DNA of 26,279 bases, from the IMG/VR virus record IMGVR_UViG_3300042691_026555, positions 1 to 26,279 of that record. One strand, 5' to 3'. Shown here piece by piece: positions 2,515-23,756 of this stretch (position 1 is its first letter; each line of letters starts with the position of its first letter). The notes under the pieces are model-generated. The model was not told where the DNA came from. It saw only the letters and a program-made list of their open reading frames with translations, and did no database searches. The translations under genes were made by a program, and so were the position numbers. This DNA comes from a virus.

Positions 2515-2679
2515 TTTTTTCTTAAAAGAGTAGTAAGACCATCAGGGAAATGGTGGTGATACTATTCCCCAGTCACCCTCAGACTGGGTATGAGAGACGT
2601 TTTTATACACCCATAGGTCTCGGTTAGCGGGTGTTTAACAATGTTAAGAATTGTGAGAGATCCGTAACATTTGTTTACC
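2515..2679 (-). promoter_or_regulatory. Long structured 5' leader of psbA
   Basis: About 160 bases between the predicted RNA start and the psbA ATG. It holds at least two perfect small hairpins: CCCAGTC/GACTGGG (2568-2588, 7-base loop) and ACCAT/ATGGT (2538-2554), and a possible CACCC/GGGTG stem further upstream. The last 15 bases before ATG are A-rich with no convincing ribosome site. Control of translation or RNA stability is plausible but inferred. Confidence 0.5.
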
Positions 2680-10206: not shown

Positions 10207-10671
10207 CTATGCTAATCGTTTGACATAATCACTACAAATTCCATAACAATTAAATGCCTTTAAATCAGTGAAGACATCTACTGGCATATTCCACTCGGGC
10301 ATTACAATAACTGATTTTGGAGTATAAGATTTTCCTGGATAAGTCCAAATATAATTTCTACTAGTTAAAGTATAATCATCATCCTGATGCCAAAAATAAT
10401 TGAACCCACTTGTACCATAAGAAAACTCATAGAGTGCTTCAATATTTTTACAATGAATCCACAAAAAATCTTTATATTTTGATAACCAAAACCAGTCTAT
10501 AAGATACTGAGGATCATCATGCCCAAGATAAAGTTTTTTATCATAGGTGTCATACCTAATATCAATCTCAACATGAAATCCTTCTAGTAATGCCTTTTCA
10601 ATATACTCTGGTCTATTTTCTTCAAGAGGATTTGGTCCGTCGATATTACCTCGATGTGCTATAAGTTTCAT
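10207..10671 (-). CDS. Short glycerophosphodiester phosphodiesterase-like protein
   Basis: 154 residues with the GDPD hallmarks: IAHRGN at the start (catalytic His and Arg), EN at about 18, VEIDIRYD (metal-binding acidic pair) and LGHDDP (second His). The family normally has about 240 residues, so the second half of the barrel is short; such short forms can sit next to nucleotidyltransferase genes in surface polysaccharide loci. It may act on a phosphodiester-linked or polyol phosphate compound. ATG 10671 overlaps the HAD-nucleotidyltransferase stop as ATGA, suggesting a joint role. Confidence 0.75.
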   Translation of the reverse strand: MKLIAHRGNIDGPNPLEENRPEYIEKALLEGFHVEIDIRYDTYDKKLYLGHDDPQYLIDWFWLSKYKDFLWIHCKNIEALYEFSYGTSGFNYFWHQDDDYTLTSRNYIWTYPGKSYTPKSVIVMPEWNMPVDVFTDLKAFNCYGICSDYVKRLA

Positions 10672-12038
10672 ACTTTATAATGCTCCAAGAAGTAATTGAG
10701 ATCTTCGGGAGTTCCAATTCCCCACATCCTTTCAATATCTTTAATGCGAATCTTTTTACCATCTTGAATTGCTTCATTAAATACAGGGCAAACATAAAAC
10801 TCATTGTTTGTCCTAATATTTTTTTCAATCATCTGTTCTGCATACTTGACATAATCAGATCCTTTTTTCCAGAAGTAGATACCAACAGTTGCATTGTCAC
10901 TAATTGGTTTTTTCTCTGCAACTTCAGAAACAAATCCATCCTCTCCTACCTTTGCGTAGGACCACTTAGGATGAGTTGCTTTAAAACTAACGATACCACC
11001 ATCTATACCATCAGCACTAAATGCATAAAGACACTCATTACTATTCCATTCAACAAACTGATCGGAGTTTGCCATTACAAGAGGAGCATCATTATTAATA
11101 AACTCTTTTGCAAGTAATGTAGTACAAGCAGCACCCTCAGTCAATCCATCGACTTGAACTATATTGCAATTAGGTGCAATCAAATTAAGTAAGTATTGAA
11201 GACTATATTTTTCATAATGTTCCTTTTGTACAATAAATGTATAGTTTGCTTCAATATTTAAATTTTCAACTACCACTTGTATCATTGGTTTCCCATTGAC
11301 TTCAATTAAAGGTTTTGGGAATGTATATCCAGCATTTGCAAAGCGAGTTCCTGCACCCGCCATTGGTATAAGAACGTTCATCTTTTCGGATTTCCAAGGA
11401 ACCACCGTAAGTTTTTTATCTGTAAAAAGTTTAAATACCTTATCAATTTTTTCTTGATTCAAATCATACCTATTTTCAATGGCAATTAAGTGAGCTTTAC
11501 TGTCCAAAGCACCTTGCCTACCAATATGACTATCTTCAAAAATTATAGTATCTTTTGGAAGAGCATTGCAAGCAGTCATACACTTCCAGTACATTTCTGG
11601 AAATGGTTTGTTTCTCACAACATCTTCATTGCTGACATAGTAATCAATGAACTCCAATACTCCCAATTTAAGGAGAACAAGTTTAACAGTATTGCGAATA
11701 CTATTACTAGCAACTGCAATTTGATAATCCCTTTCTTTCAGTTGCCTGAAATAGTACATCAATTCAAAATCATGCTCTAAATCAGAAAAAATTTTAAGAG
11801 TTTCTTTTTGCTTATCTTCCCATATTTGTTGATGCTTATCTGCTGGAAGTCCTTTCTTCTCAGTAAGCATCGTAAGTTTTCTTGATGTAGGAAGGCCATC
11901 ATAAACACTCAAATGTTCTTCCCTACTAATCACATAATCAGTAGAAACATTTTCCAAAGCACGATTGAGTGCTTCGTAATGTTGTTCTCGACTATCAACG
12001 AGAACTCCATCAAGATCAAAAATTACTAACTTATTCAT
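10668..12038 (-). CDS. HAD phosphatase-nucleotidyltransferase fusion
   Basis: 456 residues, two enzymes in one chain. Residues 1-215 are a HAD hydrolase of the phosphoglucomutase/phosphatase type: FDLDGVLVDS with Asp8 and Asp10, a Ser111-Asn112 motif, Lys144 in NKPFPEMY and FEDSHIG. Residues 220-456 are a sugar-1-phosphate-type nucleotidyltransferase: MNVLIPMAGAGTRF, then PKPLIEVNGKPMIQ, ANSDQFVEW and a conserved C-terminal RMWGIGTPEDL. The second domain begins with Met220 and looks like a once separate gene. A natural reading is phosphate processing followed by activation to an NDP derivative. Overlaps the small HAD gene by 8 bases and the GDPD-like gene by ATGA. Confidence 0.88.
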   Translation of the reverse strand: MNKLVIFDLDGVLVDSREQHYEALNRALENVSTDYVISREEHLSVYDGLPTSRKLTMLTEKKGLPADKHQQIWEDKQKETLKIFSDLEHDFELMYYFRQLKERDYQIAVASNSIRNTVKLVLLKLGVLEFIDYYVSNEDVVRNKPFPEMYWKCMTACNALPKDTIIFEDSHIGRQGALDSKAHLIAIENRYDLNQEKIDKVFKLFTDKKLTVVPWKSEKMNVLIPMAGAGTRFANAGYTFPKPLIEVNGKPMIQVVVENLNIEANYTFIVQKEHYEKYSLQYLLNLIAPNCNIVQVDGLTEGAACTTLLAKEFINNDAPLVMANSDQFVEWNSNECLYAFSADGIDGGIVSFKATHPKWSYAKVGEDGFVSEVAEKKPISDNATVGIYFWKKGSDYVKYAEQMIEKNIRTNNEFYVCPVFNEAIQDGKKIRIKDIERMWGIGTPEDLNYFLEHYKV

Positions 12039-20676: not shown

Positions 20677-21583
20677 TTTCTTTATACCATTCGTAAGTTT
20701 TTTGAATTCCTTCACGGAGAGAGATCTTTGGTTCCCACCCAAGTGCTTTGATTCGATCTACATTCATAACCTTTCGGGGAGTTCCATTTGGTTTAGTAAA
20801 ATCCCAGTTAATATCTCGATCATAACCAACAACATCAGCAATAATATTTGCAAGTTCCCAAATTCTAACATCCTCACCTGTACCAACATTGATATGTCCT
20901 GCTTCATCATACTTCTGCATACAAACATAACACGCCTCTGCAAGATCATCAACATATAAAAACTCACGCATTGCTGACCCATTACCCCAAAGGGTCACAG
21001 ATTCTTTGGCATTGTGAAACTTTGCAATCATCGCTGGGAGAACGTGTGAGGTTTCCAGATTAAAGTTGTCATTAGGACCATAAAGATTTGTAGGCATCAG
21101 AGATATGGCATTAAATCCATACTGTTGACGATATGCTTGACACATCATAATACCAGCAATCTTGGCAATCGCATAGGCATCATTAGTTGGTTCCAAAGGA
21201 CCCGTCATCAACTGATCTTCTGTGATTGGTTGAGTTGCAAACTTAGGATAAATGCAAGAGGATCCAAGAAACAAAAGTTTCTTTACACCAAAGTTATAAG
21301 ACTGTTGAATAATATTAGTTTGAATCTGTAAGTTCTCGGTCAGAAACTCTGCCTTATAATTACTGTTTGCCATAATGCCACCAACTTTGGCGGCAGCAAT
21401 AAAGACATATTCTGGTTCCTCTGAACAGAAATATCTTTCTGTTTCATCCTGATTTGTGAAATCAACATCATCACGAGTGCCTTTGATAATGTTGTTATAT
21501 CCTTTACTTTCAAGATTTCTCACAATTGCTGATCCAACCATTCCGTTGGCACCAGCAACTAATACTCTAGAATCACTGTCCAT
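20663..21583 (-). CDS. fcl: GDP-L-fucose synthase
   Basis: 306 residues, an extended SDR that epimerises and reduces GDP-4-keto-6-deoxymannose to GDP-L-fucose with NADPH. Seen are [39 protein letters not shown], the catalytic YAIAK and [12 protein letters not shown]. Length is normal. ATG 21583 lies 11 bases inside gmd; upstream in-frame TTG not chosen. Second enzyme of the GDP-fucose route. Confidence 0.95.
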
Positions 21584-22574
21584 AAATGCACATATCCTCA
21601 ACAAGTTGTTTAAAAGAAATCTTAGGTTCCCAACCTAGTTTTTCTTTTGCCTTTGTGGCATCACCTAATAAAGTCTCTACTTCAGCAGGTCGAAAATATT
21701 TAGGATTGACCCTGATAACGGTTCTTTTAGTAAGTTTATCAATACCAACCTCATTCAAACCCTCACCTTCCCAAGCAATTTTCATTCCAAAATATGGTGC
21801 TGCCTCTTCTACAAACTCACGCACAGAGTATTGAACACCAGTTGCAATTACATAATCATCAGGTTCTTCTTGTTGAAGCATCAACCACATTGCTTCCACA
21901 AAGTCCTTAGCATGACCCCAATCACGTTTTGCATTCAGATTACCAAGTTCTAAAACATCTTGTAGTCCTACTGATATTTTAGAAAGTGCTCTTGTAATTT
22001 TACGAGTAACAAATGTTTCACCACGACGAGGTGACTCATGATTGAAAAGAATACCTGTACAAGCATACATTCCATATGCTTCACGATAGTTTTTAGTTAT
22101 CCAATATCCATATAATTTTGCTACACCATAAGGAGAACGGGGATAAAAAGGAGTAGTTTCACTTTGAGGAGTTTCTTGAACAAGACCGTAGAGTTCGCTT
22201 GTAGATGCTTGATAGATGCGGACACGTTCTTCCATACCCAAGAGACGGACTGCTTCAAGAATGCGAAGAGTTCCCACACCATCCACATCAGCAGTGTATT
22301 CAGGCATCTCAAAGGATACTTTGACGTGACTCTGAGCACCAAGATTATAAATCTCATCTGGTTGGACTTTTTGTATAACTCTTACTATATTAGTCGAGTC
22401 TGTTAAGTCTCCGTAATGTAACTTAACATTTTGATACAAATGATCAATACGATGGGTATTGATTAGAGAAGAACGTCGAACAATACCATGAACTTCATAT
22501 CCTTTTCCTAAAAGAAGTTCTGCAAGATAAGATCCATCTTGCCCAGTAATACCCGTAATTAATGCAACCTTCAT
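21573..22574 (-). CDS. gmd: GDP-mannose 4,6-dehydratase
   Basis: 333 residues, converts GDP-mannose to GDP-4-keto-6-deoxymannose. [18 protein letters not shown] is the NAD(P)-binding start; [19 protein letters not shown] (YxxxK) and [17 protein letters not shown] are diagnostic for the family. Slightly shorter than the usual 340-370 residues. ATG 22574 begins the conserved part; the frame is open further upstream but runs through the terminator and hairpins. First gene of the glycan cassette, about 13 bases after the predicted RNA start, without a clear ribosome site. Confidence 0.96.
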
Positions 22575-22593: not shown

Positions 22594-22622
22594 ATTATAC
22601 TAAAAAAGAGAGGTTTATGCAA
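22594..22622 (-). promoter_or_regulatory. Candidate promoter of the glycan cassette
   Basis: Minus strand TATAAT (22599-22594) is perfect; 17 bases upstream is TTGCAT (22622-22617), only 3 of 6 against the -35 consensus. The -35 box lies in the loop and stem of the terminator at 22601-22630. The predicted leader before gmd is very short. Confidence 0.6.
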
Positions 22623-22630
22623 CCTCTCTT
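22601..22630 (-). terminator. Terminator in front of the glycan cassette
   Basis: Perfect 10-bp stem AAGAGAGGTT/AACCTCTCTT with a 5-base loop and a six-T run on the minus strand. It ends transcription from the small-gene block before gmd. Confidence 0.88.
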
Positions 22631-22651
22631 GCTCAGTATGCAGGCTCGCCA

Positions 22652-22777
22652 CTTGCTTTTTGACTAGAAGCAAGAAACTAGGCGGGAGAGAGTCCCATCC
22701 GCACCACTTGCTTTTAGGAAAAGCAAGAAACCATAAGGGGTCATTCTGACTCCACCACTTGGTTTTAAGAAACCAAG
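22652..22777. repeat. Three related stem-loops with a compensatory base pair
   Basis: Plus-strand view: CTTGCTT/AAGCAAG (22652-22674), CTTGCTTTT/AAAAGCAAG (22707-22727) and CTTGGTTT/AAACCAAG (22758-22777), each preceded by CCA and followed by AAA, spaced 55 and 51 bases apart. Between them are smaller imperfect stems (GGGGTCA/TGACTCC and a GCGGGA-type stem). The third copy has swapped one C-G pair to G-C on both sides. It contains the stop codon of the 75-residue gene. Fills the only sizeable non-coding stretch (22575-22764). Confidence 0.7.
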
Positions 22778-22992
22778 AAAAGTTGAGATAACTTTGTCAT
22801 TTCAGTAATGCCAAAGAATGCTATCAGAAATAGCACATCCCAAAGTTTGAGTTTGATAGCAAAAGGAATACCGAGTAAACCCCCGATGAACTTTATCATC
22901 AAACCACTCTTAAAATCTCCCCATAACATAACTTGATATCCAAGTAAGAGGAAAAAGTTCCCGATATATCTCAGGACACTTGTTCTAGACAT
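22765..22992 (-). CDS. Small membrane protein (75 aa)
   Basis: Starts [20 protein letters not shown]; three hydrophobic stretches (about 9-22, 30-42, 48-60) suggest two or three membrane segments. No family recognised. ATG 22992; the longer open frame upstream overlaps the neighbouring gene and lacks support. Its TAA stop lies inside the first transcribed stem-loop of the hairpin trio, so the hairpins form its 3' untranslated region. Confidence 0.65.
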
Positions 22993-23018
22993 AAGGGGTT
23001 TGCTCCCGACCAGTGCTG

Positions 23019-23273
23019 TTATAGACCATCCGTGTCTTCTTCGTCGTCTTTCACATAACAAGGAACACGATCTGGATCTAACCATTTCGCATATTCAATA
23101 TCCTCCATTGCAGTAGAACATTGTAGCACATTATCAAAAAGATAAATGTCATTCCAACGTTTGGTATAATAGTTTTGCTTTTGCATACGGTAATCTGGTT
23201 TACCGTTGATTTCTAAAATACCCGCTTCAACAAAGCGATACCCTTCGCGTTCAAGAAGAACCTTAGTTTTCAC
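23019..23273 (-). CDS. Hypothetical protein (84 aa)
   Basis: Probable GTG start at 23273, overlapping the upstream stop as GTGA. The sequence has KVLLEREGYRFVEAGILEIN, a Tyr/Arg-rich middle (YRMQKQNYYTKRWNDIY) and an acidic tail DDEEDTDGL. Soluble, no known motif. Coupling with the 70-residue gene and the good promoter at 23505-23533 support expression, probably early in infection. Confidence 0.68.
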   Translation of the reverse strand: MKTKVLLEREGYRFVEAGILEINGKPDYRMQKQNYYTKRWNDIYLFDNVLQCSTAMEDIEYAKWLDPDRVPCYVKDDEEDTDGL

Positions 23274-23482
23274 GCTTCAACTGCCTCGAGATCACTGGCG
23301 ACATACTCCATAAGCATTTCGTAGTCGTCAAGGGGGTCACCAGAAAATACCACTCCTTCATTTTCGTAGAATCGGCGGACCTTTTTATAAAGTTTCGGAC
23401 TCTTTACATCAAGATAGATTTCCCCGTTAGCAGCAAGACGAAGAGTGCTAACATCTTTTTTGAACTTTTGAATCAGAGACAT
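23270..23482 (-). CDS. Hypothetical protein (70 aa)
   Basis: Starts MSLIQKFKKDVSTLRLAANG; mixed alpha/beta composition with KLYKKVRRFYENEGVVF and an acidic C terminus. No known domain. The frame extends 17 codons upstream through the promoter, so ATG 23482 is the start; leader about 15-20 bases. First gene after the promoter at 23505-23533. Confidence 0.7.
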   Translation of the reverse strand: MSLIQKFKKDVSTLRLAANGEIYLDVKSPKLYKKVRRFYENEGVVFSGDPLDDYEMLMEYVASDLEAVEA

Positions 23483-23504: not shown

Positions 23505-23533
23505 ATTATAAGGTGGAGACTGTGTTTAGTCAA
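23505..23533 (-). promoter_or_regulatory. Sigma-70 promoter of the 70/84-residue gene pair
   Basis: Minus strand TTGACT (23533-23528), 17-base spacer, TATAAT (23510-23505): 11 of 12 consensus bases at ideal spacing. It lies between tRNA-Pro and the 70-residue gene; a small hairpin GCCAGT/ACTGGC (23538-23555) sits just upstream, after the tRNA 3' end. Confidence 0.82.
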
Positions 23534-23557
23534 GTGTGCCAGTGAAGAAACTGGCGA

Positions 23558-23631
23558 TCGGAATGACAGGATTCGAACCTGCGACTTCTCGCTCCCAAAG
23601 CGAGTGCTCTACCAAACTGAGCTACATTCCG
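23558..23631 (-). tRNA. tRNA-Pro (UGG)
   Basis: 74 bases. Acceptor stem CGGAATG/CATTCCG, discriminator A, anticodon stem CTCGC/GCGAG with loop TTTGGGA giving anticodon UGG, and T arm with GGTTCGAATCC. CCA is not encoded. It follows the 38-residue gene by 8 bases, so it probably shares that transcript. Confidence 0.97.
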
Positions 23632-23639
23632 AAGTACCG

Positions 23640-23756
23640 TTATTTAGTTCGGTGTATAAGCATTATACCCATAATGGGAGCGATTGTCAAGCCTGCTCCA
23701 CAGAGTCCTAACCAGATCGGGCTTGCTGCCAGTGTCTCTACTATGTGAAAAATCAT
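23640..23756 (-). CDS. Tiny membrane protein (38 aa)
   Basis: Starts MIFHIVETLAASPIW and is hydrophobic from about residue 13 to 34 (LGLCGAGLTIAPIMGIMLI), ending HRTK: a single membrane helix. ATG 23756 overlaps the upstream stop as ATGA and has GGAGAGGAAG just before it. No family recognised. Ends 8 bases before tRNA-Pro. Confidence 0.65.
   Translation of the reverse strand: MIFHIVETLAASPIWLGLCGAGLTIAPIMGIMLIHRTK

Follow-up and report, generated by a model that had tools for sequence, protein, structure and literature searches.

The three stem-loops spanning positions 22652 to 22777 of the window (the whole stretch of 26,279 nt analysed, taken from an IMG/VR virus record) are, by covariance-model match and comparison with relatives, a minus-strand wcaG RNA with one extra unit on its 5′ side. 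Our favoured explanation, to which we give as a whole a probability of about 0.5, is that this array would give a short phage operon a structured 3′ end, where it may act as a 3′ barrier ahead of a terminator fused to a promoter that would restart transcription into the next cassette. The window is a T4-like cyanophage, judged by its gene content and the relatives found.

The identity of the RNA is virtually beyond doubt. A cmscan search placed wcaG (RF01761) on the minus strand at 22638–22735 with 103.5 bits (gathering score 42); the match covers the full model (1–98 of 98) and corresponds to the units that we call A and B, that is, to two of the three stem-loops. The third, in unit C, lies outside the Rfam model and is included in a second, weak wcaG match (25.6 bits, 22743–22822), so the span under study runs from the pseudoknot of B to the hairpin of C. 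We take the minus strand to be the functional one on account of the Rfam match, the terminator, the direction of the genes and an asymmetry in G-U pairs: these make up 195 of 2066 counted cells (9.4%, summed from the covariation table) and would be A-C mismatches on the plus strand. An earlier note on this DNA, which did not recognize wcaG in two of the units, had seen on the plus strand a faint likeness to tRNA T arms with a CCA end. That reading is not supported: the Rfam match and the terminator are both on the minus strand, and ARAGORN found no tRNA at the array, giving for the window only a tRNA-Pro and a tRNA-Ser, both elsewhere. A perfect TTGACA-17-TATAAT promoter-like site (23662–23690, minus strand) lies just upstream of the tRNA-Pro gene (23556–23632).

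The wcaG RNA is a known but poorly understood cyanophage RNA. The account of the motif in Weinberg 2010 (PMC2864571) presents it as a cis-regulatory riboswitch candidate for exopolysaccharide genes, nearly confined to marine metagenomes and T4-like cyanophages and located near exopolysaccharide or high-light genes, and the riboswitch-candidate label was repeated in later phage papers (PMC9964418, PMC9602691, PMC10665884). The RNA described here resembles that family in its full-model match over units A and B, in its T4-like cyanophage setting and in its position upstream of sugar genes, which is gmd in the window and mostly sugar genes in the relatives. It differs from RF01761 as printed by cmscan, which is without units C and D and without the pseudoknot helix S1 (the Rfam structure line gives only S2 for unit B), although the 2010 figure or the Rfam seed may draw the pseudoknot. 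Furthermore, whereas the family is filed as a cis-regulatory riboswitch candidate, the comparison here puts the RNA last in the upstream unit, at its 3′ end and ahead of the terminator–promoter. Another known cyanophage motif, PhotoRC-II RNA (RF01717, 81.7 bits), occurs in the window at 2554–2646 (minus strand), just upstream of a psbA-like ORF at 1435–2514.

Relatives were collected by blastn against phages, which gave 87 records, and by three pattern scans of IMG/VR that added further loci; at least 199 unique core sites, among the matches listed, were analysed. Enough upstream sequence was available at 190 of these sites, other counts refer to 193, 167, 161 or 156 loci, and the structure statistics come from an alignment of 83 sequences. 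Since the A-unit linker AAGTGGYGCGGATGGG was in part the basis for choosing the set, its invariance is partly by construction; the helices, flanks and terminator lie outside that selection pattern. An exact-pattern scan of bacterial genomes returned 16-mer matches in unrelated bacteria, with no cyanobacterial title among the matches listed, and is uninformative on hosts.

The three copies that the earlier note had described at 51–55 base spacing are indeed present, with spacings of 55 and 51 nt, and the C-G to G-C swap that it had pointed out is real (CTTGC/GCAAG versus CTTGG/CCAAG). All three stems exist as well, but the first copy, unit B, is a pseudoknot and not the simple hairpin it had been taken for. 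Unit B (22641–22681, minus strand), the second half of wcaG, consists of the sequence CTAG-TTT-CTTGCTT-CTAG-TCAAA-AAGCAAG (22652–22681), which contains the stem CTTGCTT/AAGCAAG, and of the exit TGGCGAGCCTG; the order S1-UUU-S2-S1-NNAAA-S2 is that of an H-type pseudoknot. Both interleaved helices covary in the relatives, and S1 is paired in 97.6% of cases, with two pairs showing changes on both sides and with forms such as CTGG/CCAG, CAGG/CCTG, CTAG/CTAG, CCTG/CAGG, CCAG/CTGG and CGAG/CTCG. Unit A (22681–22735, minus strand), the first half of wcaG, has the stem CTTGCTTTT/AAAAGCAAG at 22707–22727, followed by the hairpin UGGUGCGGAUGGG...CCCGCC, and its pseudoknot helix S1 is just 2 bp long in the window. 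In unit C (22737–22777, minus strand) the stem CTTGGTTT/AAAACCAAG forms a hairpin at 22758–22777 over the TAA stop of the phrog_2318 gene, and an exit hairpin GGAGTCA-GAA-TGACCCC follows; in the window this unit is a plain hairpin, without the helix S1 found in some other C units, and C hairpins covary among 49 sequences.

An outlying unit D (22995–23037, minus strand) is separated from C by the phrog_2318 gene; its hairpin AGAC-ACGGATG-GTCT overlaps the phrog_481 stop and its exit reads CTGGTCGGG...CCCC. The S1 hairpin is present in 343 of 360 D-like units, in several covarying stem forms, and such units may hold a second helix. The four units are unlike one another in stems and linkers, and GGA-containing loops and linkers recur in D, C and A. 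An extra unit directly precedes the Rfam model at 148 of the 190 sites with enough upstream sequence: 68 are of C type, 54 are of D type or others with a GGTGGAGTC exit, and 26 carry a GGTCGG exit.

Comparison across the 83 relatives showed that 95.3% of cells are paired, against 79.4% after shuffling, when both helices of A, the linker hairpin and both helices of B are counted together, and that 374 cells are doubly changed where 109 are expected. When all partners were slid along the alignment, pairing of the whole structure fell to 36–60%. The paired stems and the linker hairpin thus covary, and the region itself folds much more stably than its shuffles (z of −5.0 as minus-strand RNA and −5.8 as plus; 0 of 200 shuffles). 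These data strongly support selection on RNA structure, one of two options that the earlier note had offered; the other, a DNA cruciform, is unlikely, since a cruciform cannot accommodate the interleaved helices of a pseudoknot. We are very confident of the structure of the array units.

Downstream of the array, a predicted intrinsic terminator, AAGAGAGGTT-GCATA-AACCTCTCTT-TTTT, lies at 22602–22630 (minus strand), and a promoter-like element is fused to it at 22594–22622 (minus strand), with TTGCAT (22617–22622) in the terminator loop as the −35, a spacer of 17 nt and TATAAT (22594–22599). The −35 of the window is weak, and a simple promoter scan did not list the element. The same layout was found in the relatives. 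A terminator is predicted after the array in 171 of 193 loci, compared to 40 of 965 shuffles (4%), nearly always beginning 63–89 nt beyond the core; an exact TATAAT accompanies it in 128 of these 171, usually 5–7 nt after the stem, and the loop carries −35-like hexamers (TTGACA, TTTACA or TTGCAT-like). Several of the loci without a detected terminator, about one in ten, adjoin the next gene or a tRNA. Of 167 loci, 140 have a strong terminator in the bin immediately following the RNA, and none was found over the 790 nt before it in those loci, among the matches listed. Promoter-like sites occur just after the terminator in 121 of 156 loci and about 830 nt upstream in 65 of 156, and the 150 nt leading up to the core are at background (same 156 loci, among the matches listed). 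In the window, a promoter-like TTGACT-17-TATAAT at 23505–23533 (minus strand) is the presumed start of the unit that ends in the array.

That unit comprises three small genes on the minus strand: phrog_552 (23270–23482), the first gene of the presumed transcription unit, and phrog_481 (23019–23273), both conserved, and phrog_2318 (22765–22992), which looks like a membrane protein gene. The 3′ end of phrog_481 overlaps unit D and that of phrog_2318 overlaps unit C. At least one of the three, phrog_552, phrog_481 and often phrog_2318, precedes the array in 148 of 161 loci, and the genes downstream of those 148 fall into 38 clusters, so that the array does mark a cassette border in other phages, as the earlier note had proposed to check. 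On the far side of the terminator in the window lies gmd, GDP-mannose 4,6-dehydratase (21573–22574, minus strand; phrog_540, nucleotide-sugar epimerase), which opens the glycan cassette. In DSL-LC03 and S-SKS1, too, the annotation of the gene that follows wcaG is gmd. Across the relatives, the gene next downstream is in most cases sugar-related, being an epimerase or dehydratase in 89 of 190 and a cytidylyltransferase in 38 of 190. Within the cassette of the window, a 456-aa ORF (10668–12038, minus strand) has by eye a HAD-type phosphatase-like start, followed by a sugar nucleotidyltransferase-like part.

The units are placed at the stops of the upstream genes. All 61 unique phrog_2318 genes are followed by the exit motif of a unit at 4–19 nt from the stop, and 86 of 118 phrog_481 genes have one no more than about 50 nt beyond theirs; the stop codons of these genes are often inside the unit. 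In S-SCSM2R the D, C and A–B units each follow a different one of three cistrons. Across ten complete phages, most matches to the exit motifs of C and D fall at the wcaG locus, three of the phages having a few further matches, one of them within a baseplate gene; the reversed pattern gave no matches in these genomes. Genes flanking the array are co-directional with near-constancy across loci; where they seemed to be opposite, the ORFs were on inspection spurious antisense ORFs by appearance. The phylogeny of the array tracks the upstream genes slightly more than the downstream ones, a weak signal. Annotated hypothetical proteins overlap the wcaG RNA on the same strand in S-SRM01 (L122, 1543–1749) and S-SM2 (L125, 1449–1643), and may be spurious. 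In S-CREM1 (L130, 1498–2320), a stretch of about 1 kb holds wcaG, manA and abiF RNAs together with several tRNA genes.

As judged from sequence, then, the family, the strand, the covarying pseudoknots, the placement of units at stop codons and the fixed terminator–promoter layout are established, and a structured 3′ end with cassette restart fits these facts better than a 5′ leader of gmd. Units C-A-B, with the outlying D, would be a chain of pseudoknots or hairpins at the 3′ end of the phrog_552–phrog_481–phrog_2318 operon, transcribed as the tail of that unit; the intrinsic terminator would close the operon, and the fused promoter-like element would restart transcription for the sugar-gene cassette from gmd onwards. 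The knots may serve as a barrier that caps or stabilizes the upstream cistrons, protecting them from 3′-to-5′ exonucleases, and may insulate them from the swappable cassette. The 3′-end position is probable; for the stabilizing or insulating role, where mRNA stabilization is favoured as the mechanism by analogy with 3′ structural barriers, we would put the chances at about even. Of the earlier note's suggestion of a 3′ stabilizer at the edge of the glycan cassette, the position thus fits the anatomy, and the stabilizing role is what we infer. Some observations count against the favoured explanation: a simple terminator might suffice as a 3′ barrier, about a tenth of the loci have no detected terminator, mostly sugar-related downstream genes are what a regulatory link to exopolysaccharide genes predicts, and the conserved linkers UGGUGCGGAUGGG (itself in the search pattern) and UGGCGWGC suggest a specific partner, which plain exonuclease blocking does not need.

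In the published proposal (Weinberg 2010, PMC2864571), developed here as a leader that senses something and controls terminator read-through into gmd and the other sugar genes, the terminator at a fixed distance after the RNA would be the switch; leader control is possible, since the downstream genes are mostly sugar-nucleotide genes and read-through transcripts would carry the RNA. We consider this reading weakened and rather unlikely, however, because the promoter-like element in and just after the terminator in most loci would bypass the RNA, units follow other cistrons too, the helix sequences are free to vary, and a tRNA gene follows the array in S-RIM50, S-IOM18 and S-CREM1. Attenuation by an antiterminator was rejected: the array scored 14.83 for pairing to its own terminator arm versus 14.40 for swapped arms, a small excess at no fixed place, so that no conserved antiterminator, and with it no consistent alternative structure of the kind expected of a riboswitch, was found.

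Somewhat less probable still is a small, stable RNA that would be processed from the 3′ end of the upstream transcript and act in trans, for instance by titrating a host protein as its decoy or by countering a host defence in the manner of an antitoxin RNA. Type III antitoxin RNAs (ToxI, CptI, TenpI) consist of tandem pseudoknots followed by a terminator, the layout seen here; the recurrent GGA elements of D, C and A, and the annotated abiF RNA about 700 nt downstream in S-CREM1, point the same way. Their repeats are near-identical, however, while the units here are not, no type III endoribonuclease toxin or AbiF-like gene was present among the representative downstream genes scanned, so that a type III toxin–antitoxin system was rejected, and the RNA lacks a predicted promoter of its own, judging by the 150 nt ahead of the core. 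The STAXI motif, in its description by Weinberg 2010, likewise has two or three tandem copies of a pseudoknot; the likeness noted is one of layout, and its neighbours are genes for DNA-binding and DNA-handling proteins. A recombination or cassette-exchange site acting as DNA, with the RNA structure incidental, would explain why the array sits where a conserved block meets a variable cassette, and why 887 locus pairs share more than 90% of the B region with unrelated downstream genes. PeSLs, composite promoter–terminator motifs of T4-like phages, are reported to mediate such shuffling (Arbiol 2010; Comeau 2014, as cited in PMC4503421), and the array shares with them a terminator, here a predicted one, fused to a predicted sigma-70-like promoter that persists while flanking genes shuffle. 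Unlike PeSLs, a long structured RNA precedes the terminator–promoter here, and the unit motifs lie essentially at one locus in the 10 phage genomes checked. Homology-driven exchange favours identity, not compensatory changes, and cannot account for covarying pseudoknot helices that no cruciform could form, so a recombination site as the sole function, which the earlier note had considered, is improbable. The probability that the hairpins arose by chance, or are ordinary terminators that do nothing more, is negligible; the terminator itself is ordinary, but the Rfam score, the fold z near −5 and the covariation in 83 sequences refute this reading.

The comparison of at least 199 sites adds to the family record a covarying pseudoknot, an extra unit, the placement at stop codons and a fixed terminator–promoter. 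Since units stand at the ends of upstream genes, and a terminator fused to the promoter of the next gene follows, wcaG is probably a gene-end element and not a riboswitch leader. More tentatively, and with odds somewhat below even, wcaG may be the visible part of a modular class of cyanophage 3′-end pseudoknots, in which interchangeable units at the stops of successive cistrons, closed by a terminator–promoter, would cap the RNA of each cistron or attract a factor of phage or host in the course of infection. If the 3′-end reading is true, the search for a ligand and the idea of phage control of exopolysaccharide genes through this RNA would be tied to the wrong neighbouring gene, and an RNA common in marine phages would become testable as a gene-end or cassette-border element.
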